NCBI GenBank assembly: GCA_028691985.1
Contig: JAQUYG010000006.1
Span: forward strand, 7,824-56,935
Direction: 5' to 3'
Length of the DNA: 49,112 bases
Source of the DNA: Minisyncoccota bacterium
GTDB taxonomy: Bacteria; Patescibacteriota; Minisyncoccia; JAHIHE01; JAGLIN01
Positions 16,677 to 41,157 of this stretch are shown here, piece after piece. A program made the translations under genes and the position numbers. The notes below the pieces were generated by a model that saw only the letters and a list, made by a program, of their open reading frames with translations, was not told where the DNA came from and made no database searches. The stretch's first letter is position 1, and every line of letters starts with the position of its first letter.

Positions 16677-16685
16677 TGTTATATT
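16677..16685 (+). promoter_or_regulatory. Extended -10 promoter of second pilin
   Basis: TG-T-TATATT about 30 bases before ATG 16714. Same layout as upstream of the first pilin. Confidence 0.4.
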
Positions 16686-16713
16686 TAGATTGTAATTTTT
16701 AAATGCAATCCGT

Positions 16714-17112: not shown

Positions 17113-17178
17113 AGTCGTTCCTAGTGAGTAGTATAGTTTTTAGGAAATATTTTTAATATAATAACATTGTCAGGTAAT

Positions 17179-17592: not shown

Positions 17593-17602
17593 ATTTATTA
17601 AA

Positions 17603-18621: not shown

Positions 18622-20649
<2,028 letters not shown>

Positions 20650-21249: not shown

Positions 21250-21281
21250 TTTTTGACACAAACAATAAGATTTGAAAAAAT

Positions 21282-22772: not shown

Positions 22773-22782
22773 CATATAAAAT

Positions 22783-23337
22783 ATGCCGTTTGAATATTTT
22801 CTCATCCAGGCCACTTCTCAGCTGGTGCTGGAGGTGGGTAATGCTGAAATAAATCTTTGGTGGTGGCCGATTGTTTTTGCTCTCGTTAGAGACACTCTAA
22901 TCCTGATAACCATCGTGCTTTTTGTGGCGACTGTGATGGTTTTTTCTCGTTTTCAGAGTCTTAGGACTAGGATCTATAATGCAATTGAGGAGGCCTTGGA
23001 GTCGGGAAAACTTTCTAAAGGAAAGACGCAGAGAAAGTGGGATGAAATCAGAGAGTATGCAGAGTCTGATAATAAAGAAGAAAACGAAAAAGCACTTCTC
23101 GAATCGGGAAAACTGCTTGACGACGCTCTGAAGACGGCAAACTTTTCGGGTGATAATTTGGAAATGCGAATAAAAAAAATACCTGACAATCAGATAGATT
23201 TTAAGGAAGATATTATCTGGGCTTACAGGCTTGGAGAAAAAATAAAAGCGGGCGAGAGCGCTCAAATAGATAGAGAAGAAATTAAGAGAGGCATCCATAT
23301 CTTCGAAAGAACGCTGAAAGATTTAAATATTTTGTAG
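22783..23337 (+). CDS. Single-span membrane protein with charged cytosolic tail
   Basis: 184 residues. An amphipathic N-terminus (ending EINLWWWPIVFALVRD) leads into one strong membrane span (about residues 36-56, ILITIVLFVATVMVFS), followed by a helical, highly charged tail of about 125 residues. No catalytic motif and no recognised domain. It starts 10 bases after gatA and ends before a promoter for pilN, so it belongs to the gatCA transcript. I know similar proteins only as conserved hypotheticals in CPR genomes. Confidence 0.75.
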   Translation: MPFEYFLIQATSQLVLEVGNAEINLWWWPIVFALVRDTLILITIVLFVATVMVFSRFQSLRTRIYNAIEEALESGKLSKGKTQRKWDEIREYAESDNKEENEKALLESGKLLDDALKTANFSGDNLEMRIKKIPDNQIDFKEDIIWAYRLGEKIKAGESAQIDREEIKRGIHIFERTLKDLNIL

Positions 23338-23387: not shown

Positions 23388-24233
23388 ATGCCTTCAATAA
23401 ATTTGCTTCCGGAAGATTTTACAATCGATTCCTATAAAAAGAAAGAAAAAATTGCTGTCTTGTCTTTGGCGATTTTCTTTTTAGTCGTTTCTGGTTTTGT
23501 TTACGCCGGGTCTGAATTTGGCAAGAGGGCTAATCAAAAAAATCTTGACACTGTCAATGAGCAGTTGACTGAAGTTGATAAAAAAATTGATGAGGAAATT
23601 AAGAGCAACGAAATATTTTCTTCTGAATTCAAGAAAGAGGATATCGAAGGTGCATTAAATAATCATGTTTATTTCTCGAAAGTTTTAGTTTTCTTAAAAA
23701 CAATATTTACTGAAGATGTGGCTTTGGCGGAAGTAGATTTCAAATATGATGTGGCGACAGGGTATTCTGCGGAGATTATTGCCAACGCTAAAAGCTATTC
23801 CGCAGCAATTGATCAGATTGCAATTCTTAAGGATTCTTATTGGACGAAAGATGCGGTTTTTTCTGAAATAACCGCCGAACAGGAAGGGTTTGTAGAAATG
23901 ACGGGCACTGTCTATCTCAGGGACGATCTCTTGTCTTATCATGAAGAATACTGGGAATATGGAATCGGAATTATGAAGGGCGAACTCAACAGATATATAA
24001 AGCTCGACAGTTTTTCGGCTTCCCTAAGGGATGAGAAGGGCGAGGATGGAGAGAAGGAGAAAGTGGTTCTGGTAAAGTTTGGCGGAGTTTGTTATGAGGA
24101 GAGTGAACTCAAGAGAATGGAGACAAATTTTAGTAAGAATAGTCTTGTAAAAGAAATAAAAATAGACCGTAAGGTTACAGATACTCCCGGGGTTGTTAAG
24201 TTTTCTGGCAGTATGACTTTAAGGGGGTTTTAG
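23388..24233 (+). CDS. pilN: PilN-like pilus platform protein
   Basis: 281 residues. The first residues MPSINLLPEDF carry the INLLP motif that in PilN docks into PilM. One membrane span follows (about residues 23-44), then a coiled-coil stretch and an extracellular ferredoxin-like domain. PilN, with PilO, forms the ring that links the cytoplasmic PilM/motor with the pilus base. Longer than the ~180-200 residues of proteobacterial PilN; the extra C-terminal ~90 residues (from LLSYHEEYWEYG) look like a second small domain. pilO follows after 25 bases. Confidence 0.85.
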   Translation: MPSINLLPEDFTIDSYKKKEKIAVLSLAIFFLVVSGFVYAGSEFGKRANQKNLDTVNEQLTEVDKKIDEEIKSNEIFSSEFKKEDIEGALNNHVYFSKVLVFLKTIFTEDVALAEVDFKYDVATGYSAEIIANAKSYSAAIDQIAILKDSYWTKDAVFSEITAEQEGFVEMTGTVYLRDDLLSYHEEYWEYGIGIMKGELNRYIKLDSFSASLRDEKGEDGEKEKVVLVKFGGVCYEESELKRMETNFSKNSLVKEIKIDRKVTDTPGVVKFSGSMTLRGF

Positions 24234-24258: not shown

Positions 24259-24903
24259 ATGAAGAAATACAATATAGATTCTGGCATAAAATTCAAGGTA
24301 GGCGATAATAAAGATATCGTATTCTTGTTTTTCTCTTTGGTGGTTTCTGGTTTGTTCTTGTACTTTATCGTAGGCGCTTCTTATCGAGAGTCTTTGATTG
24401 TCGTTAAAGAGACTGAACTCAAGCAGGCTAACCTTGAGACTAAAAAAAGTTTACTTAACGATATAGAAGATTTTAATGAGGAGAGCAAGGATTCCGATAT
24501 GGATGTTAACAAACTGAGTAGTTTTATCTCTAATAGGAGCAATTATGAAGATTTTTTTGCTCATATCAATGGTCTTGCTGCGAGGGAAAATGTGGAAATT
24601 TCTGAAATAGTTTTGGAGGATGTTAAAAAAGCAGTTTCGGATAAAGAGAAAGACAACGGCGGGTTTAATGAAAAAGCAGTTTCTTTTTCATTGAGCGGTG
24701 ATTATTCCCATTTTTTGGGATTCATGGAATCTATGGAAAATAGCGCTCCTTTTGTTCAAGAGATAGCTATGAGCATTAAAGCACAGGAAAGTAATGACAA
24801 AACTTCAGAAAAAGAAGATGAGGAAGGCGAGGAGGAGGTCAGGGAGGCAAATCTATATCCTACTCTTGAGTATAGCGTATCATTTAAATTCCTTTATTAT
24901 TAG
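24259..24903 (+). CDS. pilO: PilO-like pilus platform protein
   Basis: 214 residues. A short cytosolic N-terminus, one membrane span (about residues 21-43), a coiled coil, and a ferredoxin-like domain that includes the PilO-type sequence VSFSLSGDYSHFLGFMESMENSAPFVQ. It is expected to pair with PilN. A Glu-rich linker (EKEDEEGEEEVRE) interrupts the last beta strands. The next gene starts 4 bases after the stop, so translation is probably coupled. Confidence 0.83.
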   Translation: MKKYNIDSGIKFKVGDNKDIVFLFFSLVVSGLFLYFIVGASYRESLIVVKETELKQANLETKKSLLNDIEDFNEESKDSDMDVNKLSSFISNRSNYEDFFAHINGLAARENVEISEIVLEDVKKAVSDKEKDNGGFNEKAVSFSLSGDYSHFLGFMESMENSAPFVQEIAMSIKAQESNDKTSEKEDEEGEEEVREANLYPTLEYSVSFKFLYY

Positions 24904-24906
24904 AGA

Positions 24907-25236
24907 ATGAAAAAAATGATTTCAAAGAGGAGTCTTCTTAAATTAAAGAGGCTAAAGAGAGTCTTCTCTGTTTTTGTGTCGATCACTCTCTTTTTTGGGA
25001 TGTTCTACTATGTTTTTCTAATGACGGAAATCAGAGACGAAGATGTGGACGGTTATGAGAACCTTAAAGCGGATAGTCATCAAAAATATAAGGATGACAT
25101 AAGCGACACTAAAAGCGGAATCAATAATCTTTTGGAAAATACTCAAATTGAAAAAATAACTGTCTTTGACGGATTTTTCGATGATATGGATTATGAAGGC
25201 AAGGAAAATCCTTTTGTAAATCTTTTTAATTTCTAG
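24907..25236 (+). CDS. Small membrane protein of the pilus operon
   Basis: 109 residues. A very basic N-terminus (about 11 Lys/Arg in the first 21 residues), one membrane span (about 22-43) and an acidic external tail that ends GKENPFVNLFNF. A terminal G-x-x-NPF motif is common in proteins encoded next to pilO in CPR pilus loci; by position it could replace PilP, but there is no lipoprotein box and no PilP fold visible. Function is not known. Confidence 0.7.
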   Translation: MKKMISKRSLLKLKRLKRVFSVFVSITLFFGMFYYVFLMTEIRDEDVDGYENLKADSHQKYKDDISDTKSGINNLLENTQIEKITVFDGFFDDMDYEGKENPFVNLFNF

Positions 25237-25267: not shown

Positions 25268-25918
25268 ATGGAAAATAAAATTATGTTAGGGGAGCCGGAA
25301 GATAAAAAAAAATCGACAGCGATCGTGCTTTATCTGATTTTTTTGTTTTTGGTTATGTCTCTTATCTATCGCGCGATTATTTTGTTTTATTTGCCCAATG
25401 AGACATCTCAACCTGTGGAGCAGGCAGAAGTAGTGGACCCGGATAAATATTTTGAAGGCTGCGATCTGAAGTTTGAAAACTGTTCAGATGCAGACACAAA
25501 TTGTAATCTTCATCTTTTTTGTAATGATCAGAAATACGAAACTTGTAGAATTTATGACTGCGGAGACTATTACGGCGTAGCTAAGAGAGTTGCTGGGGCT
25601 GAGATGGTTTTTGTTGAGGAAACAAAACCTGATGCTGCAAGAGTTTTGGAAAAGAAAACTGAATGCAAGGGTACTTTGGAAATTTTGGAGAACGATTGCG
25701 TGAATGGCAAAACAGAAATATTAAGCAGCGTTGTGACCAATGGGGAATGTAAGGTTAACAATTTTATGGTATATTTTAAGGAAGTGGGGCTGAGGCCGAT
25801 AGAGTTTTCTTCTGTGGAGAACGAGCAATATCTGATAACTGCCAATTATTGCGGAGATTTGGATAAAGTTGTCGCAGTGGGTCGCGGCGGAGTCTCTATA
25901 GACAGGAAACGATTCTGA
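25268..25918 (+). CDS. Membrane-anchored Cys-rich protein, paralogue A
   Basis: 216 residues. One N-terminal membrane span (about residues 17-40) and an external domain with 13 or so cysteines. Landmarks shared with the next gene: D-x-Y/K-Y/F-F-x-G-C, E-x-C-x-D-x-x-C-N, L-x-C-x-D, C-R/K-x-Y-DCGD, a T/A-x-x-C-x-G-x-L-x-I-LE segment, and N/DYCG near the C-terminus. The cysteine content implies disulfides outside the membrane. No known family is recognised. It lies between the platform genes and the large exported proteins, so a role in pilus biogenesis, secretion of the tip proteins or disulfide handling is possible but unproven. Confidence 0.8.
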   Translation: MENKIMLGEPEDKKKSTAIVLYLIFLFLVMSLIYRAIILFYLPNETSQPVEQAEVVDPDKYFEGCDLKFENCSDADTNCNLHLFCNDQKYETCRIYDCGDYYGVAKRVAGAEMVFVEETKPDAARVLEKKTECKGTLEILENDCVNGKTEILSSVVTNGECKVNNFMVYFKEVGLRPIEFSSVENEQYLITANYCGDLDKVVAVGRGGVSIDRKRF

Positions 25919-25977
25919 TTGTGTAACATTTTGCAAGGTTGTTATTTTTATGTAAATTTATAATTAATCTAATAAAA

Positions 25978-26631
25978 ATGAAAAACAAAAAGGGGGTTAA
26001 AAAAAATATATCAATAGATGGTATCTATATCGCGAGAACGCTTATGCTCGCGGTTTGTGTAATTTTTATCTTGTTATTAGTTTATATAGTAGGCGGACTT
26101 TTTTTGGTCAGGGAAAATATTGTGGGTCCCGATAATTCATCGTATCAAAAAGATGCTTACTTCTCAGGGTGTGTTCTTCTAGAAGAAAATTGTTTGGATG
26201 GGGATTGTAATTTTTATACTTTATGCGGAGACGGTAATTATAAGGTATGCAAAGTTTATGATTGCGGGGATTCTCATGGAGTGTTTACCGAAGATGTAGA
26301 TGGTGCTGTGGATCGGAAGAAGAGAAACAAACCCGACCTTAAAGCTCTTGATGCCAAAAAAGAAGCTTGTCAGGGTAGTTTGGCTATTCTAGAAGATAAA
26401 TGTATTCAGGGCGAAGAAGAAAACCTTAAAGTGAAAATTGTAACAGAAGGGGAGTGTACGATAACAGCCTTTACCCTTATTTATGATATATATGGGGCCA
26501 GGGCGACTACTTTTGAAGATCTGGGGGGTGGGGAATATATGATCCTCTCTGATTATTGCGGGGTTGTATCAGAAATCGTTCCTGCTACGGGGGAAGGGAT
26601 ATCTTTAGAATTAGAATATCTAAACAATTAA
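25978..26631 (+). CDS. Membrane-anchored Cys-rich protein, paralogue B
   Basis: 217 residues from ATG 25978; the frame is open upstream but lacks a better start. Same build as the preceding gene: one membrane span (about residues 17-43), then a Cys-rich external domain with the common landmarks FSGC, EENC, DCGDSHGVF, CQGSLAILEDKC and SDYCGVV. I estimate roughly one third identity by eye, so the duplication is old and both copies have been kept. It ends 13 bases before the 625-residue exported protein, which suggests joint expression. Confidence 0.8.
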   Translation: MKNKKGVKKNISIDGIYIARTLMLAVCVIFILLLVYIVGGLFLVRENIVGPDNSSYQKDAYFSGCVLLEENCLDGDCNFYTLCGDGNYKVCKVYDCGDSHGVFTEDVDGAVDRKKRNKPDLKALDAKKEACQGSLAILEDKCIQGEEENLKVKIVTEGECTITAFTLIYDIYGARATTFEDLGGGEYMILSDYCGVVSEIVPATGEGISLELEYLNN

Positions 26632-26644: not shown

Positions 26645-28522
26645 ATGATTCCTTTTATTAGAATAACTAAAGCGAGGGGGGTAATAGCTGTATTTTTTGT
26701 AGTTCTATCTTTTTCAGTCTTTTCTCCTCTTTGTCAGGCCGCTACGGATTGCAATACGATCGCCGATCCTGACAAAAAGAGCCTTTGTCAGTTAAAAAGA
26801 AACACTACTGTTAATGTGACCACTGTGGATCACAATTGGTATGACCCAACGGATGCTGCCTTGCATGATTTTGCTGTATGTGACTTGCCGGCAGATATAA
26901 CAGATTGTCCAAGTCCCCAGCCTTCAACTTCACCTTCTCATTGTTCATACTCTAATTATACTTACACCTATCCTACCTATTGTAATGACCCCGACATCGC
27001 TAGCCCTAAGCATACTTTGCATAGAGAATTCTATTCTTCTGATGATCTTGATGATGAGACTAATATAAATAGACTGGATAAGAACTTCAAGATTGAAGTA
27101 ACCACGAGTTCAAATGTCTATAGTGGTATAAATTCTATTCAAATACAATGGAAAAGTACTACTGGGGTATGGCCCCCAGCCTCCTGGACGGATGTGGATC
27201 CTTTAAAGGCAGGATCTGTTACTTGTTGGAATACTGACAGTTGCTCAATATGCAGAGAAAGTGGAAATTGCGATAATCCTACTATTCCTGTTTCAGCACT
27301 TAGTACAAACAGTGACGGAACTCAGAATGTTCTTTGGATAAGAGCTATTATTACGGATAATAATTTCAATGTTATGTGGATTGGAGAGGACGAAGATGTT
27401 ACAAAAACTCCAGTCTTAGATAAATACTACAGATTTCCAATTTGTAGTGATGCGGGGTGTGCAAATAGCTGCTTAGATGCCTCGGAGAACCCTTTAAACG
27501 AAGCACCAGAAATTCAGGCGGCTGGCTTTGTTAATAACTGCGCTTTGGATGAATCTTTTACTTTAAATTGGTCATTCACTGATAATGAAAATAATGGACA
27601 GTCTGAATTTTATTTAGAGGTGTACAATAAAGATACTAACGAAGGTGTCTATTCCACAACTCAGCTGTCTAATATTCTTTCGTGGTCAGCTCCGGAATTG
27701 AAATTACAAAGCGCGGGCGGAGTCCTCGTCTCTGGGCAAGATTATGGTTGGAGGCTGAGAATCAGGGACGATTATTCAGTGAATACAAGATGTCGACAAT
27801 GGTCCGATTGGTTCGAGGGCGATGTTTTTACAGCGTGTTCTTCATGCGCGGGGAATGTTAATGCGCCAAGTCTCAGCGATCTTTCTGTTACGGCTCCAAT
27901 TAACTTTTGCGCGCCGAGTCTTTCTTATGTGCTTTCTTGGATTACTACTAGCGATGATGGGCAAGGGTCGGTTGAAATCAATCTTTGGAATGTATCCGAT
28001 GGGACGGGTCCTATCTCCTATATTTACGACGATGATAGGCAGTCTTTCAGCGCTTTTCTCCCTGGCGACTTGGAATATGGTAAAACTTATAGATGGGAGT
28101 TGGAAGTATGGGATGATTATTTCGATTTGGCTTGTCGAAAGAAAATATGGGTGGATGGCGGTAGCTTTACGGTAGAAGATCGGCATCCAACTGTAAACTT
28201 CTCCGTATATGATAGTGAAGGCACAAATTGTTTAGAGGAAGCTTGTAATTTTTTGGATACTTTGGATTTTATTGACGAGTCTGATGTTTCTTATTTTGCA
28301 GGAGGTAGCTTGGCAACATATGAATGGGGTATAGAGGGCTCTGTCTTTAGCTCAGAGCAGGACACTTCACGGGTTTTTGCTATAAGTGAAGGGGGAAGCC
28401 ATAATATAACACTAACTGTTGATGACGGAAATGGATGTGTTTGTTCAAAAAATGAAACTTTGTTATTAGGGGTGGGTTCTCCTGTTTGGACTGAGATTGC
28501 TCCAGGTTCTGGCACTGAATAA
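26645..28522 (+). CDS. Exported multidomain protein, probable pilus-associated
   Basis: 625 residues. Signal peptide to about residue 32 (hydrophobic core VIAVFFVVLSFSVF, cut after CQA). The first ~280 residues include a Ser/Thr/Pro-rich stretch and a beta domain with IQIQWKS. From about 285 there are two fibronectin-III-like domains (second one begins APSLSDLSVTAPINFC near 406), then a PKD-like domain (about 514-625, with ISEGGSHNITLTVDDGNG) and the tail PVWTEIAPGSG. The C-terminal ~220 residues match the end of the giant neighbour. No C-terminal anchor or sortase signal. I infer a secreted or pilus-borne binding protein. Confidence 0.8.
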   Translation: MIPFIRITKARGVIAVFFVVLSFSVFSPLCQAATDCNTIADPDKKSLCQLKRNTTVNVTTVDHNWYDPTDAALHDFAVCDLPADITDCPSPQPSTSPSHCSYSNYTYTYPTYCNDPDIASPKHTLHREFYSSDDLDDETNINRLDKNFKIEVTTSSNVYSGINSIQIQWKSTTGVWPPASWTDVDPLKAGSVTCWNTDSCSICRESGNCDNPTIPVSALSTNSDGTQNVLWIRAIITDNNFNVMWIGEDEDVTKTPVLDKYYRFPICSDAGCANSCLDASENPLNEAPEIQAAGFVNNCALDESFTLNWSFTDNENNGQSEFYLEVYNKDTNEGVYSTTQLSNILSWSAPELKLQSAGGVLVSGQDYGWRLRIRDDYSVNTRCRQWSDWFEGDVFTACSSCAGNVNAPSLSDLSVTAPINFCAPSLSYVLSWITTSDDGQGSVEINLWNVSDGTGPISYIYDDDRQSFSAFLPGDLEYGKTYRWELEVWDDYFDLACRKKIWVDGGSFTVEDRHPTVNFSVYDSEGTNCLEEACNFLDTLDFIDESDVSYFAGGSLATYEWGIEGSVFSSEQDTSRVFAISEGGSHNITLTVDDGNGCVCSKNETLLLGVGSPVWTEIAPGSGTE

Positions 28523-28603: not shown

Positions 28604-31600
28604 ATGATAAAAATTAGCAAAGTATCCTGCCTATTCCTTCTGTTTGTCGTTGTCGCAATATATTATTCTCTTTCTTTAAGGGGTAAATATATTCAGGCGG
28701 CCACGGAAGTCGAGATTGTGAAGCCCGTTGATGTTGTTTTGGCTGTGGATACTTCTGCTACTATGGGAGAAAATTCTAAATTAGCAATAACAAGATTATC
28801 CGCTTCAGCTTTTTTAGACAGTGTTATAGCTTCCTTTCCGAGTTTTGATTATTACAATACTTATGCTTACCATCAAGTTGGTCTGGTTTCTTTTAATACC
28901 AACATAGAAACAGAAAGTTTAAATAGGAACCTACAGGATGAAGATGTGACAACAAGAGATGTTAAGAGTTTGATTGATGACACTTCTGTTGATGGTATTT
29001 TTGCGGTGGCCGATGGACAGAGAAAAACTGCGACAGGAATATTTAACGCAAAGAATGTGCTTACGGATCAATATCTTTCTAATCCGTCTGCTGATAGGGT
29101 TATGATTATTGTAACCGATGGACTTCCTACTGGAACGGGGAATACCGTTGATACCGCTAAAAGCGCTGTTGACTTTGCTAAAAGTGAGGGTATAAGGGTG
29201 ATTGCGATCGGTCTTGGTATGGATATTGTTTCAGGGACTGCTACTGCTAATGTGGAAGCTGAAAACTTTATAAGATATCTTGCTTCCTCTGCCGGAGATT
29301 GTTTTTATGTTAATCAGTATTATTTTGATAATCCTGATGAGGCTTTGCTAAATTGTAATTCTATATCTTCCGAAGACCTGGGTAGCGCGATGGGGGGGAT
29401 ATTCGATACTATAAGTTCCACGATGTTTTTTGACACTCCTCCTAGTGTCAGTGCCCTTATGTCTCCGAACGGACCTCTTTTTTCGGCCGACCAATTTTAT
29501 CTGCAGTCATCAGCTAGGGATGATATAGGTTTTAAGGAGTTCTATTTAGAATGGGCTCTTGCTGAAAACTGGGATAGCGAGGATTTGAGAGAGAGGACTT
29601 ATTGTTCTAACTTGTCTGGAATAGTCGAGGAGGGCGGATATAGGAATATAAGCGTAAGTACGGGAGAGCTTGGTTCATTTAATGCCGGTACCGAGATAAA
29701 ATATCAGGCAGTTGCCAAGGATGCCAGTGACAATGAAGTTATAGAAGGGCCTGTGAGCGTTTATGTTGCCAATGTCTATCTAAGTATCCCAGAACTTAAA
29801 AGAAATAATAATAACACTATATACTTAAGTGTGTCGGATCCTAGCGGAGCGGTTTATGCAAAAAGCAGTTTTTATGTAACTATTACTTCTTTTGAAACTG
29901 GCGAGAAGATAGAAAACGCCTTGATGACCAGAATCGCTAGCTCAAGTGTTTATAATCCCACATATTATTATGTTTTTAATCCTGGATGTAGTTGGTTTTC
30001 TGATTATATTGTGGATGCGGACGAAAGTTATAGAAAATACGCCAGTGATATTTCTCTTGACATTTCAGTAAAAGCTTACGATGATGCTTTCGGGTATAGG
30101 AGTGATTATGTTGCTACTTCATATGGGAATACTCTGACCAATTATTATGAAAGTTCTTCAATGGGCAACTGTTTTAACTCTATAAATGATGATTGTGACT
30201 TTTATGTGTCGAATGGCGATGCAATCGTCGACAACGAAGAACTTCTTTGCGATATGGAAGATCCGGTGGTAAGTATTTTTAGAACCGATCCCGATGAAGA
30301 TTATTATGAAGTCTATAATGACGAGACTTCTGTTACCCTTAGATCAATGTCATATGACGATGCTCCTCTTATAAAACACACGATTTACTATACAGTTGTG
30401 GGATATTCAGGGTGGATAGTTGCTTTTGATTGTAACGATAACAATTTAGATGGAAAATGTGATGCAGATATCAGCAAGAGCATTGACGATTTTTCTGTGA
30501 ATGTAAACTCCATATTTCCTCTTGCTGCGGGAACCACTGTGAAATATTATTCTACTGCTGTAGATAGTTCGGGAAATTACAACCAAGGATCTTCTCCGGA
30601 GAAAACATTTGTAGTAAAAAGTGAGGGGTGTGAAGATAAGGCAGATTTGGAGAGCTGCACTACAGAATCTGGTGGCGTTTGTTGCGATGGTGTTTGCAAT
30701 ATCAGTGCCTCTAATCTTTATGATTACGATTCGCAGTGTGCTGCTAATTACTGTGACGGTACAACGCTTAGATTAATCCCAGATGCTACTTCGGCCGGCT
30801 CTGTCTGCGCGACAGACGAAGGCTTGGATGATGGGTGTTTCGCTTTTACTCCTTCCGATCCAGCTTATCCTTTTGAGGTGTCTGAGTTATATTATGGTAC
30901 TGAAGCATACAATCCTATGGGATGTGAGGAAAGGAGCTATACTTGTCAAACAGGCAAATGCTTATATTCTTTCAGTAATAGAAACAATGATGGTTGTGTC
31001 AATGAGGTTAATTACACGGATTATGAATGTGTGGAAGATAGTTGCGAAGCCTTTCATTCTTGGGGAGATGCCTCTTGTGATAGTTTGGGAAGTTGGACTA
31101 ATTTAATAATGGAGGATAGTGATGCTGTAATAATGACTGGTGAGCCTGAGGTTCTTGATACTAAGACTGGACCTCTTAAGATAACTGCGTCTGTTATGGA
31201 TGCGAGTGGTGTTGAAGAATATGAAATCCAATGGAGGGTTAACGGTGGTAGTTGGCAGAGTAAATCGTGTGGAACCTGCGGAGAGAATATGACTTGTAGT
31301 TGTTCACAAGAGATAGGACCTTTTGTACAAGGGGACTTTGTGAATTATTATATGTGGTCGAAGGATGCTAGTCCTAATGGGAATGAGAAATACGATGGTT
31401 ATGTCGGCGGGTTGGACTATTCTTATAATACTTATAGATACGATAGTTATGGTGATAGAAAAGGTGATTTTATCGGATCCGACATAGATACTCGTCTTTA
31501 TTATGATTGGTCTAGTTCTGTGATAAGAATCAACTCCAATAATGCCTGGGAGAATTTAGATAATGCATATATTACTTGGGATGGATTTTTTAAACCTGAT

Positions 31601-34600
31601 CCTAATATGTTAGGGGTATATACTTTTTCTATGTATAGTGACGATGGATTTGGAATTTATGTTAATGGAGAAGAAATAAAAAAATATTGGGGGTATCAGA
31701 ATATTGATCATACGGGAACTTATACCTTTGATTCCCAAAATCCCGTTCCTATAAGAATAGAATGGTTTGACGCTGGAGGTGCGGCAAGAATGAAATTTAG
31801 GTGGAAAACCCCTGACGGAGTTTATCATTATGCTCCTTCCTCAAATTTAATTGCCCCTTATACTCTAACTGTTAGGTCGGACGATTGCTATAATATAGAT
31901 CCTGGTTATAACGAGGATGTGTCCTCAAGTAATGCGGTAGATGTTACAGCTTGTGAGCTGAGCTCTGTAAGTGGCATATGTTGCGGCGGTTATTGTGACA
32001 CCGTTCCTAACTCTTCTAATATGAGCGAGGAATGTAGAGTGGATTCTTGTGATGGCGTGAATTGGGTGTATGATGATACCAATATACTTGGAGAGTCTTA
32101 TGAAGGTGAATATTGCGGTGATTTAGGAACCTGCTTTGAATATTATACAGGCTGTCAAAGTGGGAATAAGTGTATCGCCGGCTATTGTTCTCCTGATGCC
32201 TCAAGCGTTCAAGTGGATACCTGCGCAGGAAGTGTTTTTACGGATGTAGATTGCTATGGAGGGGCTTGCGGTATAAACACTAGCGGTTTGGAATGTTCAT
32301 TTTCCGGGGATAGCGATTTAGATGGTGTCGAGTGTAACTGTGATTGTGGTGGGTATGACATAGAAGAAGATACGCATTCTTCCATAAGCCTGGACGGTTC
32401 CAACGACTATATAAATATGGGAAGTTCTTCTTCTTTGAATATTGTCGGAAACTATTCCATATCGATGTGGGTTTATAATCGTGCGGGTAGCTCCAGCTAT
32501 CCAACTCTTCTGAATCGGGCTTTGCAGTCTAACACAAATGGTTATTTTTGGATTTATACTTCAGGGACAAATGAAAATACCATTAATTTTCAATATTCTT
32601 ATGGCTCCGGCTCTTCCGTAACTTCATTCCCTAATGCATTAGGTCTCAATGAATGGAATCAACTTACATTTACTTTTAATGATAACGCCAAGGAGCTGAA
32701 ACTTTTTGTCAATGGGGAGCAATTTAGCACTACCCGTACTTTGAGTGGTGCTCTTCCTGTCGATGACGGAACTCTCTATGTAGGCGATTATGCAGGGAGG
32801 GCTGGGACTGGCTACTTGTTTAAAGGATATATCGATGATTTAAAGATATATAGTAGGACACTTTATCCAGAAGAGGTCTCGGATCAATATGATGGCGTTT
32901 TTGTCAACAATTCTGATTTATTGGGATATTGGAATTTTGATGAAGTAACCGGAGGAAAAATTGCAGACAGTTCGGGTAACGGTAATGTAGGATATTTTAA
33001 TAATGCCGGAGAGGTATTGGGAGCTACCTGGACGAGTTCGGGGAAATATAATAATGCTTTAAGTTTTGATGGAAGTAATGATTATGTCAGTATTCCGGTG
33101 GATTTGGGGAATCCCAGTTCGATGTCTTTAGATTTTTGGTTTTATGTAAGTGAAAGCGATAAGGCTCGAACGCAATATCTTATGGACGATAGAACGGCTG
33201 GGAATTGGTGGTTTATTCAAAGTTATAATCCTAATGGGTCGGGTAATCTAAATTTCTTTGATAAAGTTAAGGTTAATGGTGTTGATTGGCAAGCAGGGCA
33301 ATGGAATCATCTGGTTGTCACGACCGACTCTTCTAGTTCTAAGATGTACATAAATGGGGCTTTAAAGGCAGTCGGTAGTGCTTATGACCCAACTTTGGGT
33401 AATGGTCTTAGATTTGGTATAAGATATAATACAACAGGTCCTTTTAGGGGTAAGATGGATGAAGTCCGTATCTATAATCGTGTGCTTTCTGAAAGCGAGG
33501 TCGTCCAACACTATCAAGGGGTATTTTTAGATGAAAGTAACCTTGCTGGTTATTGGAGCCTTGACGAGACTTCTGGTTCTTATGCTTATGATAGCTCCGA
33601 TAATGGTCCGCAATGGCAAACATATTATTATAACGAAGATAGTCCTGTTGGCAATGTAGTGCCGGATATTTGGAAAGTGTGTACCGATATGAATGATAAT
33701 GATTGTGATGGAGTAACTGAAGACAATGAAGCGCAATGCGACGGTGCGTTTGATGATATTTCTCTAGTCTCGTCTATTTTGGAAGAGGGGGAAAATGTTG
33801 ATGTTGTTGGTGGTTCAAATTATTATGCAAATTTGGATGATATTGATATTCAGAATTCCTTAAATAATTTTTCGATTTCCAGTTTGGCTGTAGATGCTTT
33901 TGGTGTGCAGAATACGACTATCGAATGGACGACAGATAGCTGGTGGGGAAATGTTGGTCGTAAGAGCTGCGGCTCTGGGGAAGAATGTAATATATGTATC
34001 AAAGGTGGCGAATGCTATAATGAGTCAGATGGAGTAGTAACTTCTTTCGGTGATAATTATATAGAGGATGAGGATCAAGACTGGTTGAGTGATGAATGGG
34101 CGGGAGGAACTCTGCAGATTTTGAGTGAAGCAAATGAGGTGGTGTCGGAATTTTATATAACTTCCAGCGATGCACATCAAATTTCTGTTGCCGGTTGGGG
34201 AGAATATGGCACTCCATCTATTGGAGCTTATTATAATATCAGGAAAAATGCCGATCTGATAGATTCTGACGATCTTTATGCAGAACAAATTTTACAGATG
34301 AAAGTGTGTTCTTGGGATTGGAACTATAACATGGGCTGTTCTGATACCTATTATGTCCATATTGATAATTCCAATGAAAAGCCTCAACTCAGTAATTTGA
34401 GGGTGACGGATCCTTATAACTTTTGTACTGATAGTCTTACTTATACTCTTGCATGGAATTATGATGATTATCCATATGGAGAAGTTGATGAGCTTTCGGA
34501 AAATATGCAAGCTTATTATACAATTCAGATTAAAGAGGTTGCTAGTGAGAGCGAGATTGTCGATTGGGATTCTGAAGGAGTTTTTGAAAAAACACAGGCA

Positions 34601-35533
34601 ACATCAGTCCACTTTTTTATGACTAATGACACTGATTTTAATATAGACTACGGTAAAATATATAAGTGGAGGGTAAAAGCAGCCGACAATTCACCGACAA
34701 ATTATCAGCTGGAGTCGGATTGGGTGGAATCTTCTGATAATGTCGTTGTCCTTGAATTTAGTTATCCATCTGTAGATTTCACTGTTAGCCCAGATTGCAC
34801 TAATGATATTTATTGTGAGTCAGGGGGCTGTGCAAATGTAGAATGTCATTATGGTGAAACTATAAACTTTTATTCTTCGTCTCGGATTTTTGCTGAATGT
34901 ATAGACGATGATGATTGTGAGTCTTCCGATAAGATAGATTGTAATGAAGATTCTTATCGGTGTGCTGGATGTGTTAATGATGGAAATTGCGCTAGTAAGT
35001 TTGGTGACCACTGGTTTTGTGATAGCGGTGTTTGCCAGCAGATTGAAGGTCACTCCTGTAATGGGGATAATAGTTTTTGTACAGAGAGGGACTATGCTAA
35101 GTGTGACGCTGAAAGCGGTCTGTGCATTTCTTGTGATGAAGACTCTCAATGCAAAAAATTTAACACAGGAGATACCTACTATTGTCAAGAAAGTCTTTGT
35201 GTCAGCTATGCCGATGGTTCTGTGACCGAACATTCCTGTAGTGACAATAATGACTGTAGGGGTTACAATAGTACTGGAGGCGAAGATTTTGTATGTAACG
35301 CTGGAATGTGCGAGGATTATAATTATAGGCAATGGTATTTCGGTGATACGGAGGGTGTTGTAGAAAGTACGGAGCCTAATCCAGAAAAGATATATGTCAT
35401 TTCTGAGGTGGATCGTTTTATGGTTAGGATGTATGTTCGAGATATCTTTGGTAATTCTTGCCCCGCTGAATCTTGGTTATATTTCGGTGGAAAGAAATAT
35501 CCGACATGGAACGAGGTTTCTCCAGAAGAATAG
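28604..35533 (+). CDS. Giant VWA/PA14/LamG exported protein, candidate pilus tip adhesin (PilY1-like role)
   Basis: 2309 residues with a signal peptide (to about 33). VWA domain about 41-270 with a metal site D49-x-S51-x-T53 and ITDGLPTG-like VTDGLPTG; beta domains; Cys-rich module 1 about 672-825; PA14 domain about 953-1085 (GVYTFSMYSDDGFGIYVNG); Cys-rich module 2 about 1095-1255; two LamG/ConA-like domains about 1258-1430 and 1484-1640 (both with LDGSNDY/FDGSNDYV and a Y-R-x-L-x-x-x-E-V end); a fibronectin-like domain from 1924; and a PKD-like end that contains a ~140-residue Cys-rich insertion. VWA proteins in pilus operons (PilY1) sit at the tip and bind surfaces. No PilY1 propeller is visible, so the analogy rests on VWA and location. 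Confidence 0.88.
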   Translation: MIKISKVSCLFLLFVVVAIYYSLSLRGKYIQAATEVEIVKPVDVVLAVDTSATMGENSKLAITRLSASAFLDSVIASFPSFDYYNTYAYHQVGLVSFNTNIETESLNRNLQDEDVTTRDVKSLIDDTSVDGIFAVADGQRKTATGIFNAKNVLTDQYLSNPSADRVMIIVTDGLPTGTGNTVDTAKSAVDFAKSEGIRVIAIGLGMDIVSGTATANVEAENFIRYLASSAGDCFYVNQYYFDNPDEALLNCNSISSEDLGSAMGGIFDTISSTMFFDTPPSVSALMSPNGPLFSADQFYLQSSARDDIGFKEFYLEWALAENWDSEDLRERTYCSNLSGIVEEGGYRNISVSTGELGSFNAGTEIKYQAVAKDASDNEVIEGPVSVYVANVYLSIPELKRNNNNTIYLSVSDPSGAVYAKSSFYVTITSFETGEKIENALMTRIASSSVYNPTYYYVFNPGCSWFSDYIVDADESYRKYASDISLDISVKAYDDAFGYRSDYVATSYGNTLTNYYESSSMGNCFNSINDDCDFYVSNGDAIVDNEELLCDMEDPVVSIFRTDPDEDYYEVYNDETSVTLRSMSYDDAPLIKHTIYYTVVGYSGWIVAFDCNDNNLDGKCDADISKSIDDFSVNVNSIFPLAAGTTVKYYSTAVDSSGNYNQGSSPEKTFVVKSEGCEDKADLESCTTESGGVCCDGVCNISASNLYDYDSQCAANYCDGTTLRLIPDATSAGSVCATDEGLDDGCFAFTPSDPAYPFEVSELYYGTEAYNPMGCEERSYTCQTGKCLYSFSNRNNDGCVNEVNYTDYECVEDSCEAFHSWGDASCDSLGSWTNLIMEDSDAVIMTGEPEVLDTKTGPLKITASVMDASGVEEYEIQWRVNGGSWQSKSCGTCGENMTCSCSQEIGPFVQGDFVNYYMWSKDASPNGNEKYDGYVGGLDYSYNTYRYDSYGDRKGDFIGSDIDTRLYYDWSSSVIRINSNNAWENLDNAYITWDGFFKPDPNMLGVYTFSMYSDDGFGIYVNGEEIKKYWGYQNIDHTGTYTFDSQNPVPIRIEWFDAGGAARMKFRWKTPDGVYHYAPSSNLIAPYTLTVRSDDCYNIDPGYNEDVSSSNAVDVTACELSSVSGICCGGYCDTVPNSSNMSEECRVDSCDGVNWVYDDTNILGESYEGEYCGDLGTCFEYYTGCQSGNKCIAGYCSPDASSVQVDTCAGSVFTDVDCYGGACGINTSGLECSFSGDSDLDGVECNCDCGGYDIEEDTHSSISLDGSNDYINMGSSSSLNIVGNYSISMWVYNRAGSSSYPTLLNRALQSNTNGYFWIYTSGTNENTINFQYSYGSGSSVTSFPNALGLNEWNQLTFTFNDNAKELKLFVNGEQFSTTRTLSGALPVDDGTLYVGDYAGRAGTGYLFKGYIDDLKIYSRTLYPEEVSDQYDGVFVNNSDLLGYWNFDEVTGGKIADSSGNGNVGYFNNAGEVLGATWTSSGKYNNALSFDGSNDYVSIPVDLGNPSSMSLDFWFYVSESDKARTQYLMDDRTAGNWWFIQSYNPNGSGNLNFFDKVKVNGVDWQAGQWNHLVVTTDSSSSKMYINGALKAVGSAYDPTLGNGLRFGIRYNTTGPFRGKMDEVRIYNRVLSESEVVQHYQGVFLDESNLAGYWSLDETSGSYAYDSSDNGPQWQTYYYNEDSPVGNVVPDIWKVCTDMNDNDCDGVTEDNEAQCDGAFDDISLVSSILEEGENVDVVGGSNYYANLDDIDIQNSLNNFSISSLAVDAFGVQNTTIEWTTDSWWGNVGRKSCGSGEECNICIKGGECYNESDGVVTSFGDNYIEDEDQDWLSDEWAGGTLQILSEANEVVSEFYITSSDAHQISVAGWGEYGTPSIGAYYNIRKNADLIDSDDLYAEQILQMKVCSWDWNYNMGCSDTYYVHIDNSNEKPQLSNLRVTDPYNFCTDSLTYTLAWNYDDYPYGEVDELSENMQAYYTIQIKEVASESEIVDWDSEGVFEKTQATSVHFFMTNDTDFNIDYGKIYKWRVKAADNSPTNYQLESDWVESSDNVVVLEFSYPSVDFTVSPDCTNDIYCESGGCANVECHYGETINFYSSSRIFAECIDDDDCESSDKIDCNEDSYRCAGCVNDGNCASKFGDHWFCDSGVCQQIEGHSCNGDNSFCTERDYAKCDAESGLCISCDEDSQCKKFNTGDTYYCQESLCVSYADGSVTEHSCSDNNDCRGYNSTGGEDFVCNAGMCEDYNYRQWYFGDTEGVVESTEPNPEKIYVISEVDRFMVRMYVRDIFGNSCPAESWLYFGGKKYPTWNEVSPEE

Positions 35534-35557
35534 TTGAAATATTTAAGAGCATTGGAT

Positions 35558-36763
35558 ATGAAATTTAAATATAGAGCCATAACAATAAGTGGCAACGAGC
35601 AAGTTGGAAAGATTGAAGCCAGTGGTCAAGAAAAAGCTGTAGAACTTTTGCAAAAACACAGGCTTGTCATAGTCTCCATAGACCCGATAAAGGAGTGGTT
35701 TTCTTTTGCTAAAATTTCTAGCGTCGTCAGGAGGGTAAGTTCCAAAAAAATCGTTATGTTCTCTAAAGAGCTTTCTATTTTACTTTCGTCGGGAGTTTCT
35801 TTGGTTGAGGCGTTAAGAATTCAGTATGAGCAGGAAGAAAGCGCTTTTTTTAAGGAGCAAATTTTTGCCATTGCGAGTATGGTTGATGATGGAGATTCTT
35901 TTTCCAATGCACTGTCTCACTTTCCAAAAACATTTTCAGATTTTTATATCAATATCGTGAGGTCCGGGGAGATTTCAGGAAAAATGCAGGAAGCACTGCT
36001 TCATCTTGCTGACTATGTAGAAAAAAATTATATGTTAGCTAGTAAGGTCAAGAACGCCCTTCTTTATCCGGCGGTTATTCTTATCGGTTTTGCCGGGATG
36101 GGTGCGGCGATGATGATTTTCGTGGTTCCTCAATTGACAGCCATCTTTAAAGAGAATGAAGTGGAGCTTCCTCTTGCAACTAAGGTTTTGGTTGCAGTGA
36201 GTGATTTTATGTCTAATAATTTAGTGCTTTTGTTAGTGGGTATTGTCGCTTTTGTGTATATTTTTAAAGCTTATGCAAAAACAAAATCGGGGAAGGAAAA
36301 GATTGATACGCTAATGCTTACTTTGCCTCCTTTTAGTTCTCTTTTAAAGAAGTTCTATGTGGCGCGTTTTTCTGAGAATCTTTCTATATTGGTTGGTAGC
36401 GGGGTTCCGATAATAGATGCTTTGCAAATCTCAGGAGATGTCGCTGGCAATGGAGTCTATAAAAAAGTGATTTATAGTAGTGCTGATGAGGTAAGAATCG
36501 GAGGTTCAGTCGCTTACGCATTCGAACGGAGTGATTTTGTGCCGACAATGGTTTCTAAGATGCTTAAAATCGGGGAAAAAACTGGAAAGCTGGATTCGGT
36601 GCTTAGAGATGTAGCTGATTTTTACACCAAAGAAGTGGATATTGCCGTAGATGGACTCACTGCCATTATTGAGCCTATTCTTATTTTTGTGTTGGGTGCG
36701 GGGGTTGCAGTAATAGCGCTGGCTATCATGCTACCTATTTATCAAATGTCGGAGATTATTTAA
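35558..36763 (+). CDS. pilC: Type IV pilus platform protein PilC (GspF family)
   Basis: 401 residues from ATG 35558; a TTG overlapping the end of the preceding gene region is in frame but unlikely. PilC is the polytopic membrane platform on which PilB and PilT act. Two T2SSF domains are visible: the first with FSKELSILLSSGVSLVEALRI, the second with FSENLSILVGSGVPIIDALQI. Membrane spans lie near residues 165-190, 215-238 and 370-395. VPQLTAIFKENEVELPLATKV is the conserved segment after the first span. An N-terminal region FKYRAITISGNEQVGKIEAS is typical of the family. Confidence 0.96.
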   Translation: MKFKYRAITISGNEQVGKIEASGQEKAVELLQKHRLVIVSIDPIKEWFSFAKISSVVRRVSSKKIVMFSKELSILLSSGVSLVEALRIQYEQEESAFFKEQIFAIASMVDDGDSFSNALSHFPKTFSDFYINIVRSGEISGKMQEALLHLADYVEKNYMLASKVKNALLYPAVILIGFAGMGAAMMIFVVPQLTAIFKENEVELPLATKVLVAVSDFMSNNLVLLLVGIVAFVYIFKAYAKTKSGKEKIDTLMLTLPPFSSLLKKFYVARFSENLSILVGSGVPIIDALQISGDVAGNGVYKKVIYSSADEVRIGGSVAYAFERSDFVPTMVSKMLKIGEKTGKLDSVLRDVADFYTKEVDIAVDGLTAIIEPILIFVLGAGVAVIALAIMLPIYQMSEII

Positions 36764-36766: not shown

Positions 36767-37324
36767 ATGAAAAAGATTTTTAATAAAGATGGGATGAGTC
36801 TTTTAGAGATATTGACTGTTATTGCCATAATAGGCATCATGTCAGTAATTATGATGCCGCAATATTCTAAATATAAAAAGTCTAAGTCATTAGGGTTGGC
36901 AAAAACTCAGATAATGAACGATATAAGATCCGTACAGAGTTATACTATGACAACCTTTAAGTTTACAGACGGGAGTTTTCCCAGAGGTGGTTATGGAATA
37001 CATTTCTCCGCCGGAATTGGAGTTAATAGTTATATTGTTTTTGCCGACAAAGGAACCCCGGACCAGGAATATGATTCGTCGGATGAGTTTTTTGAGGAGA
37101 TAGAATTACCAGAGGGTATAGAGATAAATAGTTTGAAAGTTACTGTTGGTGGAACGACTACCGAAGTCAGTTCAGTGGATTTTGTAAGCACTCCGCCTTA
37201 CGGAATTATTTATATTGATAAACAAAACAAGGTTGGCAGCAGTTTTGTAACTTTAGAAATAGGGTATACGAATGGATCTTCTGAAGGCGCTGTCGTTCTC
37301 GTGAGCTCCGGTTCTATGAATTAG
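36767..37324 (+). CDS. Minor pilin / pseudopilin (GspH-like)
   Basis: 185 residues. Class III signal KDG-MSLLEILTVIAIIGIM with Glu5 present in the mature form. The rest is a beta-rich globular domain with VTVGGTTTEVSSVDF and a PPYGIIYID segment, the layout of GspH/FimT-type minor pilins. It starts 3 bases after pilC, so the two are translationally linked. It opens a set of four minor-pilin genes; such sets prime pilus assembly and hold tip proteins in other systems. Confidence 0.88.
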   Translation: MKKIFNKDGMSLLEILTVIAIIGIMSVIMMPQYSKYKKSKSLGLAKTQIMNDIRSVQSYTMTTFKFTDGSFPRGGYGIHFSAGIGVNSYIVFADKGTPDQEYDSSDEFFEEIELPEGIEINSLKVTVGGTTTEVSSVDFVSTPPYGIIYIDKQNKVGSSFVTLEIGYTNGSSEGAVVLVSSGSMN

Positions 37325-37337: not shown

Positions 37338-37886
37338 ATGAATAGTACAAAAAATAAAGTAAGAAAAAGAGACAGTAATGGCTTTAGTATAATGGAGGTT
37401 GTTATTGCTATAGGAATTTTGTCTGTAAGTTTTGTGACGCTTATATCTCTTTTTGCGTTTAATACACGAATGGAGATCAATAGCAGAAATAAAATAATAG
37501 CCTCTTACCTGGCGCAGGAAGCAATTGAGGTTGTGCGGCAGACGAGAGACAACAATTGGTCAAATAATGCCCCAAATTGGAATGATAATATTTTTTATGG
37601 TGATGATATAATAATAGCTATGAACAATGAAAGTAATATACTCTATGGTTGGGAAATAGTAAACGGAAACGCAGCTAAGCAAAAGGTGTATCTTTATAAT
37701 GATATATATTTTCAGTCTAAAAATGCTTCTATTAACCCGGGATGGAAAGAAACTCCTTTTAGCCGGCATCTTGTTATTGAAGATGACCTTTCGGCTCCAA
37801 CTGATGTGATAAAAATAACTGCTTATGTGAGCTACGGTTCTGGGGAGGTGCGGGTCGTTTCTTATCTGTATGACGAATGGCACTAA
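37338..37886 (+). CDS. Minor pilin (PilV/GspI-like)
   Basis: 182 residues. Prepilin motif SNG-FSIMEVVIAIGILSVSF with Glu5. The segment IIASYLAQEAIEVVRQTRDNNW is the family hallmark of PilV/GspI-like proteins (A-x-x-LAQE-x-IE-x-x-R). The C-terminal domain is beta-rich and contains DVIKITAYVSYGSGE. Thirteen bases after the previous minor pilin. Confidence 0.88.
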   Translation: MNSTKNKVRKRDSNGFSIMEVVIAIGILSVSFVTLISLFAFNTRMEINSRNKIIASYLAQEAIEVVRQTRDNNWSNNAPNWNDNIFYGDDIIIAMNNESNILYGWEIVNGNAAKQKVYLYNDIYFQSKNASINPGWKETPFSRHLVIEDDLSAPTDVIKITAYVSYGSGEVRVVSYLYDEWH

Positions 37887-37913
37887 AATCTATTTTTGTA
37901 TTATATTATTCTT

Positions 37914-38432
37914 ATGAAAAATAAAGGATTTACTCTTATTGAAATGTTGGTTACACTGTCTATTTTTTCAGTAGTGGTGCTTTTGACACTGAATACTTTT
38001 TTGAGCAGTTTTGTCTCTCAAAAAAAATTGATAGAAATGCAATCTGTACAGCGTGAGGGTTCTTACCTTATGGAAACTCTTTCTAGAGAGATAAGAATGG
38101 CGACAGAGATGACAAATTATGAAAATAATGATTCCAGTATAAGATTTAAAAATCACAGTGGTGAGGATGTTATTTATTGTCGCGCGGACGAAGATGCTTC
38201 GTGTAGCGATACTGATGATGGTGACTATTTTGCGTATGGTCCTGATGTTGATAATATGGAAATTATGAATTCATCTGATATAGTAATTGATAATTTGAGA
38301 TTTTATGTGCCTTCTCTTATTTCTTCAACTAATCAGCCTATTGTTATTGTGGCTATGACAATCAGCTCGGCCAAAGATCCTAGTGTCTCTATGACGATAC
38401 AGACCAGCGTGTCCACGAGGATTTATAACTAA
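37914..38432 (+). CDS. Minor pilin (PilW/GspJ-like)
   Basis: 172 residues from ATG 37914; a slightly longer open frame upstream offers no better start. Prepilin motif KNKG-FTLIEMLVTLSIFSVV with Glu5. The following helix (SVQREGSYLMETLSREIRMAT) matches PilW/GspJ proteins, in which an R-E-I-R motif is frequent. A short Cys pair (YCRADEDASC) is present in the globular domain. Confidence 0.88.
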   Translation: MKNKGFTLIEMLVTLSIFSVVVLLTLNTFLSSFVSQKKLIEMQSVQREGSYLMETLSREIRMATEMTNYENNDSSIRFKNHSGEDVIYCRADEDASCSDTDDGDYFAYGPDVDNMEIMNSSDIVIDNLRFYVPSLISSTNQPIVIVAMTISSAKDPSVSMTIQTSVSTRIYN

Positions 38433-38466: not shown

Positions 38467-38841
38467 ATGAATTTAAAAAAAAATGACAAAAATTCAGGAG
38501 AGATTATTTTGTTTGTAGTCTTTGTGATATTATTCTTCATGCTTTTTATCGGACTGTTTCTATCTAAGATGATTCTTCGGCAGACAAGGGTTGCAAATAA
38601 TGTTGCTAATTCTGTGCAGGCTTATTATATTGCCGATACGGGAGCGGAGGTAACCCTTTATAGCATAAGAAATGAACTTAGTTCAGGGGCTTTTACTTAT
38701 GGCAACACAATCGCTAATGTGGAAATCAGTGGCGGCAAATACATTGCAACGGTAACCAGTACTTCGTTGGATGACCTCAGTATAGAAGTAATTGGTATAT
38801 ATAATCAAACTTCAAGAGCCATAGAGCTCTCTTGGGGGTAG
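38467..38841 (+). CDS. Minor pilin (PilX/GspK-like)
   Basis: 124 residues. A short basic start, a long hydrophobic helix (about residues 13-37) and a domain with ANSVQAYYIADTGAEVTLY, the A-x-x-x-AE/TGAE pattern of PilX/GspK proteins. As in many GspK-type pilins, the FTLIE motif and Glu5 are absent (SGE-IILFVVF). It is small for the family, like the other pilins here. It ends the pilus operon; a strong terminator follows at 38897. Confidence 0.82.
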   Translation: MNLKKNDKNSGEIILFVVFVILFFMLFIGLFLSKMILRQTRVANNVANSVQAYYIADTGAEVTLYSIRNELSSGAFTYGNTIANVEISGGKYIATVTSTSLDDLSIEVIGIYNQTSRAIELSWG

Positions 38842-38896
38842 TTAACTGGACTTTATCGTATCATATTAATTGGATCATGAGATGAATATAATCTAA

Positions 38897-38930
38897 GAGG
38901 AGCCTGCAGGCTCCTCTTTTTTGTTTTTTT
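38897..38930. terminator. Strong terminator between convergent genes
   Basis: A perfect 20-base palindrome (GAGGAGCC-TGCA-GGCTCCTC) followed by TTTTTTGTTTTTTT on the plus strand. It ends the pilus operon and may also serve the minus-strand gene ending at 38944, although the T-run on that side is weak. Confidence 0.9.
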
Positions 38931-38943: not shown

Positions 38944-39909
38944 TTATTTTATTTTTATTTTATTGTTCTTTTTTCGGGGATTAGTTATAAAAATTAATGA
39001 AGAAAGAAGAACAATTCCCATCATAACTCTGGTTATCGACCAGAAGCTTGTATCTTGTGAGTCATTCCCTGATTCTTCCGAGGAGTTTGATTTTACCATT
39101 CCAATAGAGAATATAAAATCTTTTTCAATCATGTTTTCTGTGTCTGAGAGCTGATAAGTGTCGAAAACAGCGGTATATTTCCCATTATCCAGATTACTAG
39201 TAGGAATTTCTAAGGCAGGTATCTCATAAATTGAGTTAGGTATGACCGGTGGCTGGTTCTCGGGATAGGGGAATATAGCCGTATATGCAGTTTGTCCGTC
39301 TTTTTTTAATCTTACCTCTATTTGTGGGGTAATGTCGGTGTTGCCGTAGTTGTTATATATCGGCCTGATTTTAAGGTATTCTCCGCGGCTTAAATCATAT
39401 TTTTCAGGCACGAGAGAAAGGTCAAAGTCTATAATTTCCTCTCCTCCGACTTTGATGGTCACTTCTCTGTCTATCTTTTGTGAAACTATACTGCTAGATT
39501 GTTCTGTGTCATTATTGTTGTTTTTAGGTGTAGTTTTTACGCTGATAAAACCTTCATATTTTCCGTTGGGAGTGGATGGGGGGATAGAAAATTTAGCTAT
39601 AAAAATCTTTCTTTCCCTGGATTCCATTTTTATTTCGCTTATAGAATCCTCTGCTTGGATGTTGTTGTAAAATTTTACCCAGTCTGCGATATCTCCTTCG
39701 GCAATGAGGCTTATCGTATTTTTAATGTTTTCGGTATTTATGACGGTGATTTCTTGCGCATAGGAATTGCCTCTTAAAGCGTTTTCAATATTTATAGGTT
39801 CGGTAATTTGTCCGATGGCTTGGATTTTTGTGGGAAGGATACCAATGCCGATAAAGAACATTGCGATCAGCACGGTAGTTGTTAATTTGTTTCCTTCTGT
39901 TCTCTTCAT
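38944..39909 (-). CDS. Exported membrane-anchored protein, resembles DUF916/WxL-associated proteins
   Basis: 321 residues. Signal peptide (about 1-30, TTTVLIAMFFIGIGIL), two beta domains and a C-terminal membrane span (about 288-308) with a basic cytosolic tail NPRKKNNKIKIK. The first domain has SIPPSTPNGKYEGFISV, and the second IRPIYNNYGNTDITPQIEV; the same order (signal, two Ig-like domains, terminal span) and the P-x-G-x-Y-x-G-x-I-x-V motif occur in DUF916-type cell-surface proteins. It follows the secreted protein at 40017 in the same direction. The similarity is by architecture and short motifs only. Confidence 0.7.
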   Translation of the reverse strand: MKRTEGNKLTTTVLIAMFFIGIGILPTKIQAIGQITEPINIENALRGNSYAQEITVINTENIKNTISLIAEGDIADWVKFYNNIQAEDSISEIKMESRERKIFIAKFSIPPSTPNGKYEGFISVKTTPKNNNNDTEQSSSIVSQKIDREVTIKVGGEEIIDFDLSLVPEKYDLSRGEYLKIRPIYNNYGNTDITPQIEVRLKKDGQTAYTAIFPYPENQPPVIPNSIYEIPALEIPTSNLDNGKYTAVFDTYQLSDTENMIEKDFIFSIGMVKSNSSEESGNDSQDTSFWSITRVMMGIVLLSSLIFITNPRKKNNKIKIK

Positions 39910-39976
39910 ATTCTTTTTGAATTACTGATTGACAAAAGTCTGAATCTTTGGGAATCTGTCAAAGATGCAAACTTTT

Positions 39977-40000
39977 GGGGAGATTTTTGATAATCTCCCC
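39977..40000 (-). other. Hairpin between the two surface-protein genes
   Basis: GGGGAGAT, 8-base loop, ATCTCCCC: eight perfect pairs just after the stop of the 40017-41129 gene. No T-tract follows on the minus strand, so it may be an mRNA-processing or partial read-through hairpin that lets the first gene be expressed above the second. Confidence 0.5.
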
Positions 40001-40016
40001 ATCTACTTCCTTGGCC

Positions 40017-41129: not shown

Positions 41130-41138
41130 ATTTTTTCC

Positions 41139-41157
41139 TTTTGCCATTTTGGCAAAA
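41139..41157 (-). promoter_or_regulatory. Inverted repeat next to the ribosome site
   Basis: TTTTGCCA-TTT-TGGCAAAA directly upstream of the AAGGA of the secreted-protein gene. It may be an operator, or an mRNA hairpin that protects the 5' end or controls translation. Confidence 0.45.

Follow-up and report, generated by a model that had tools for sequence, protein, structure and literature searches.

How Patescibacteria recognise and hold their partner cells is largely not understood (PMC12206443). In type IV pili, effector modules are known to reach the tip on two carriers, either as parts of pilins or on the PilY1 propeller, which is held by four minor pilins (PMC8179133). The domains PF13385, PA14 and VWA are among those listed on pilins, CPR examples included (PMC8179133). 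The minor pilins PilX1 and PilX2 of Saccharibacteria carry jelly-roll and beta-propeller C-domains, and deletion of pilX2 lowers host binding by roughly half (PMC12206443). Here, we analyse a window of 49,112 nucleotides, the whole stretch of DNA under study, from a Minisyncoccota bacterium whose nearly complete 1.1-Mb genome comprises 50 contigs, the window being on contig 17. It encodes a secreted multidomain protein of 2309 aa, hereafter the giant, for which a preliminary description had proposed a role as a pilus tip adhesin.

A giant secreted protein in a type IV pilus operon

The pilus locus lies on the forward strand and includes PilM (11639–12856; TIGR01175, 1.6e-40), the PilB extension ATPase (12881–14638) and a PilT-like retraction ATPase (15052–16128), with a response-regulator domain encoded between the two ATPases. 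Three pilin genes follow (16222–17592; by their translations, two have a GFTLIE-type N-terminal signal and the middle one GFVLIN), together with the PilD prepilin peptidase (17549–18412). DNA ligase, GatC, GatA and a 184-aa membrane protein (18643–23337) sit inside the locus, a linkage that is kept across the class. Further downstream are a PilN-like inner-membrane protein (23388–24233) and a PilO-like protein (24259–24903), assigned by weak matches to PF05137 and PF04350, respectively, and by synteny. Four genes separate the pilO-like gene from the giant: a 109-aa single-span pilus-operon protein (24907–25236; synteny), a 216-aa protein with one N-terminal membrane span and a Cys-rich outer domain (25268–25918), its 230-aa paralogue (25939–26631; homology and synteny) and a 625-aa secreted PKD/Ig protein (26645–28522), a putative second tip protein. 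The giant itself (28604–35533) is followed by the PilC platform protein (T2SSF; 35534–36763; PF00482, 2.6e-59), which likely starts at an in-frame ATG a few codons inside the called ORF.

Four minor pilins complete the set, namely FimT/GspH-like (36767–37324; N_methyl), PilV/GspI-like (37338–37886; TIGR02523, under the cut-off), PilW/GspJ-like (37896–38432; N_methyl, 3e-8) and PilX-like (38467–38841; PF14341, 7.4e-7), the last being small (124 aa) and without an extra module. A single operon extends to a strong intrinsic-terminator-like hairpin 3' of PilX (38895–38918). The preliminary description had set the giant between pilO-type genes and pilC with the minor pilins; the order holds, but pilO is not adjacent. 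The minor pilins, which it had named as the carriers of PilY1-class tip proteins, are present, and counterparts of the four that carry PilY1 lie directly downstream. Facing them on the reverse strand (38944–41147) are genes for two exported proteins of unknown family, of 321 and 376 aa. Both adjoin the minor pilins in the relative G013 as well, where the larger has 78% identity, far more than other proteins of the pilus locus.

The giant is encoded by one uninterrupted reading frame. Pfam matches above curated cut-offs place a VWA domain at aa 43–238 (28730–29317; PF00092, 8.8e-12, also seen in the orthologue alignment), a PA14 domain at aa 979–1074 (31538–31825; PF07691, 1.9e-10) and two LamG/ConA-like domains. 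The first, at about aa 1260–1430 (32381–32893), is recognised by a second stretch of Laminin_G_3 and by a Sialidase N-domain/LamG-like match at aa 1330–1427 (2.1e-7); the other lies at aa 1489–1633 (33068–33502; PF13385, 2.8e-46, in two stretches). Membership of the LamG parts in the TafC family was rejected at an NCBIfam score of 79.5 of 410 bits, far under the cut-off. By eye, the N-terminus resembles a Sec signal peptide, with a hydrophobic stretch and a peptidase-I-like end. Thus the signal-peptide-like N-terminus and the VWA, PA14 and two LamG domains that had been described in one protein all stand, whereas the three Cys-rich modules were if anything an undercount: the 84 Cys form four clusters, at about aa 676–900, 1095–1248, 1693–1941 and 2065–2236. 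Elsewhere in the genome, on contig 9 (L035, 10782–12218), a 479-aa LamG protein is encoded amid a row of medium-size genes that resembles a row in G013 (L034).

Sequence inspection of the giant found no LPxTG, no C-terminal membrane anchor and no membrane span beyond the N-terminus, and hence none of the wall or membrane anchors that would argue for anchoring independent of pilins. The Pfam scan gave no N_methyl match at E<=1, and the pilin signal is absent. No match to the PilY1 propeller (PF05567) was seen in the giant at E<=1 either, in agreement with the preliminary description; a survey with the same model matched 0 of 287 phylum genomes, and its positive control was equally silent, so that it is no evidence of absence from the phylum. 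At the search threshold applied, the giant is the sole VWA protein of its genome. When its VWA region was searched against PDB sequences, the single match was a mussel thread protein (1.7e-5). AlphaFold on shallow alignments reached a mean pLDDT of 41.7 for the VWA region (2 sequences) and 40.5 for the C-terminal region (3 sequences), which is too poor, and neither model was used.

The VWA metal site had been called intact. This is loosely true of the giant, which has D49-T-S51-A-T53 / T142 / D172, that is, DxSxT and not DxSxS, and of some relatives, with the canonical DxSxS / T / D site in G006 and G008. However, at least three orthologues have G or S in place of D172, the Asp being gone in G012, G010 and G001 (and G009), and two have N in place of T53. 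The metal site is therefore not conserved, and we dropped metal-dependent VWA, the presumed working part, as a core function of the giant. PA14 was detected by Pfam in three members, the giant and its orthologues in G012 and G003, and all three have the SDDG motif (at residue 1012 in the giant). This DD calcium motif marks glycan-binding PA14 domains.

LamG and PA14 are carbohydrate-binding folds and the minor pilins also weakly match ComG competence pilins, both of which would suit a pilus part for DNA uptake or substrate capture that binds DNA or polysaccharide as a nutrient and not a partner cell. We consider this very improbable, given that the strong acidity of the giant (361 D+E vs 124 K+R) disfavours DNA binding and that VWA, LamG and PA14 modules are typical of adhesins.

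Conservation of place across the order

A similar large VWA protein at the equivalent place in relatives was the test that the preliminary description had set beforehand. Giant orthologues in equivalent position were found in 9 of the 17 other genomes of the small order, namely the family genomes G001, G003, G006–G010 and G012, and G300 from a sister family; complete ones measure about 2000–2450 aa. Protein matches to the giant were obtained in 10 of the 14 genomes of the family, its own among them; in G013 the match is limited to LamG parts elsewhere. The usual gene order in the family is GatA, 184-aa protein, PilN, PilO, 109-aa protein, Cys-rich protein, giant, PilC, FimT, PilV, PilW and PilX, and G300 has a corresponding order when read across a contig break. 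In some genomes contig breaks split the giant, and the flanks on both sides agree. In G003, pilC and the minor pilins are relocated, and the giant has stayed together with the Cys-rich gene where the pilN/pilO block ends. Of 142 genomes in a class sample, 34 gave VWA matches; comparison of contigs and coordinates with PilC positions among the matches listed places a VWA protein at pilC solely in the giant's own order. The interpretation thus withstood the test of absence from relatives, but the giant is a lineage-specific trait. LamG was found by Pfam in every complete member scanned, and a pentraxin-like domain in two.

This gene company is that of pilY1 with fimU-pilV-pilW-pilX (PMC8179133, PMC7541494), and the head domains differ strongly among relatives. 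Both points would fit a PilY1-type protein whose conserved part primes pilus assembly and whose head carries little weight for adhesion. The missing PF05567 match speaks against it, as do relatives, for example G002, that have no giant yet keep PilC and the minor pilins, and we regard this reading as improbable.

The constant C-terminal module and its Cys-rich partner

The element most likely to matter was overlooked in the earlier reading. Among relatives, the constant part of the giant is its last 68 residues (aa 2242–2309; 35327–35530; alignment A1 and own-genome search), a module of PKD-like strands that has a single conserved Cys and closes with (Y)PxWNE(V/I). Across 10 aligned proteins, module positions W3, D39, C45, P59, W61 and E63 are invariant. 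In the giant the extreme tail reads YPTWNEVSPEE (35498–35530), and pattern and profile searches recognise in it a class-wide PxWxE(V/I)xP signature, for which no description was found in the open-licence literature searched. The tail is present on only two proteins of its genome, the giant and the 625-aa neighbour, which an own-genome search shows to end in the same module and tail (..SPVWTEIAPGSGTE).

Other heads occur on an equal tail. The slot of the giant is filled by a protein with an FG-GAP propeller in G013 and with Big_7/fn3 domains in G011, and additional tail proteins have an SBBP propeller (G007) or FG-GAP (G008). Heads on the tail proteins of the slot and operon thus comprise FG-GAP and SBBP propellers, fn3/Ig and short PKD.

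We then looked across the class. In 45 class loci, nearly all selected around PilC, P-x-[WF]-x-E-[IVQ] terminates 10 of 766 complete ORFs, with 0.25 expected from its frequency inside these proteins, and most of the 10 genes adjoin pilM, directly upstream. The A1 profile of the whole module was rejected for wider searches, as it matched generic PKD repeats without the tail across the phylum, and a tail profile of 37 positions (A5) was used instead. It matched 116 of 384 class genomes, about a third; among 380 genomes drawn from the phylum, 3 that lie outside the class were matched as well. Among 40 tail loci fetched, the motif lies 0–4 residues from the C-terminus in 38. The distribution of the tail is hence far wider than that of the VWA/PA14/LamG head. 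About 70% of class genomes are without a tail match, though nearly all possess PilC, and in several class loci with minor pilins no tail protein was detected.

Pilus machinery or minor pilins lie within 9 kb in 15 of the 40 tail loci outside the order, several of which have the tail gene directly 5' of a FimT-like gene. About 5% would be expected by chance, an estimate from locus and genome sizes, and the binomial value of 4e-10 is a guide only, given that the loci are related and not phylogenetically independent and that a few were chosen with PilC known on the contig. In the other 25 loci no recognisable pilus genes were seen within 9 kb. Three tail loci without nearby pilus genes (L206, L226 and L237) have neighbours in common, among them two small conserved Cys/His-motif proteins that are cysteine-peptidase-fold-like, and lipoprotein-like genes. 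The genome also has another set of type IV pilus genes (L088, contig 23, 4651–9863), with relatives in L050, L089 and L095, where its last gene encodes a PilX-like protein of 596–623 aa; these proteins end W(N/K)EIQ, which resembles the last residues of the PxWxE tail.

The 216/230-aa family of Cys-rich membrane proteins has about ten conserved Cys (alignment A4). Six of 142 class genomes encode it, comprising all 5 sampled genomes with a VWA giant and G332, from a distant family. In G332 the partner gene lies 6 bases upstream of a gene for a 1096-aa tail protein ending KPKWREILPW, and the two form a stand-alone unit away from pilus genes (L165, 6444–10331, reverse strand). Where the pilus locus has two tail genes, as in the window and in G007, it has two partner copies; in the stretch read from G013, a single partner gene accompanies three PKD-type genes. 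The pairing persists across rearrangement, which suggests a direct functional link with the tail protein, in which the partner may serve in holding, folding or disulphide maturation.

Instead, the PxWxE tail might serve exported proteins of the class in general, as a C-terminal signal for sorting or retention. The giant would then be a surface adhesin on another receptor, perhaps the Cys-rich protein, which spans the membrane and is found together with tail proteins, and would be merely co-transcribed with pilus genes. The 25 loci without recognisable pilus genes and the G332 pair off the pilus locus fit this reading. A general signal should, however, mark many proteins per genome, and about 101 of the 116 positive genomes have one match each; linkage to pilus genes far exceeds the estimated chance level, and the position of the giant beside the minor pilins is kept in the order. 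We therefore judge a general signal unlikely, although it is the alternative to which we give the most weight.

Proposed role and relation to known pilus adhesins

We favour, with moderate confidence, the explanation that the giant is a type IV pilus tip adhesin whose carrier is the C-terminal module and not a pilin or a PilY1 propeller. Neither known carrier is present in the giant, yet four minor pilins adjoin it, and the simplest reading is that the constant module takes the carrier's place. The giant would leave the cytoplasm via Sec and not as a pilin. The Cys-rich membrane protein would probably hold or mature it before assembly, and the PKD-like module with its YPxWNEV tail would dock on a tip complex of the four downstream FimT/PilV/PilW/PilX-like minor pilins. 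VWA, PA14 and the two LamG domains, which make up the N-terminal and middle parts, would then face outward and could attach to proteins or glycans of a partner cell, the presumed host, and PilT-driven retraction would draw the cell in. Docking by the tail is the least certain of these steps; the occurrence of tail genes away from pilus loci calls for caution, and the tail may signal surface attachment more broadly. Taken together, the earlier observation is confirmed with a correction to the metal site, and its interpretation is partly supported.

More tentatively, the PKD-like module and PxWxE(V/I)xP tail could constitute a third type of tip-adhesin carrier, one that docks exchangeable heads on minor pilins across the class and has a dedicated Cys-rich partner in this lineage; we put this at somewhat below an even chance. 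The class-wide signature allows candidate surface adhesins to be listed from sequence alone, roughly one for each genome. Binding modules would become predictable, and attention could be directed to one docking peptide and four small minor pilins instead of hundreds of surface proteins.

The closest counterparts are the PilC/PilY1 tip adhesins of type IVa pili, including Pseudomonas aeruginosa PilY1 with its VWA and Myxococcus PilY1 (PMC7541494). Like these, the giant is a secreted non-pilin with variable N-terminal effector modules, VWA among them, and a constant C-terminal part, encoded near four FimU-PilV-PilW-PilX-type minor pilins in a neighbourhood that is conserved for the giant. Unlike these, it does not match the C-terminal propeller that defines the family (IPR008707/PF05567; PMC8179133) and ends in the PKD-like module and PxWxE tail instead; it is about twice as large as P. 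aeruginosa PilY1 and combines PA14 and LamG in one chain. The sortase-anchored wall adhesins differ in having a C-terminal LPxTG and a membrane span, both absent here.

With the modular minor pilins PilB (VWA) and PilC (ConA-like lectin) of Streptococcus sanguinis, the giant shares effector modules, type IV pili and a monoderm setting (PMC8179133, PMC9934059). There the module is fused to the pilin, whereas the giant has no pilin signal and needs another carrier part. Fusions also occur within the class, where two other families have modular minor pilins with a C-terminal LamG, of 799 aa and 1240 aa, in PilX position and FimT-like (L126, 15859–18255; L161, 3375–7094). Together with the PilX module of Saccharibacteria, these make an adhesive role at the pilus plausible. 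PilX1 and PilX2 of Saccharibacteria, which are also Patescibacteria, have a large pilus-borne outer domain with a role in host binding (PMC12206443), as we propose for the giant. Their module is on PilX itself, whereas PilX of the window is small, with 124 aa, and a separate exported protein bears the modules.
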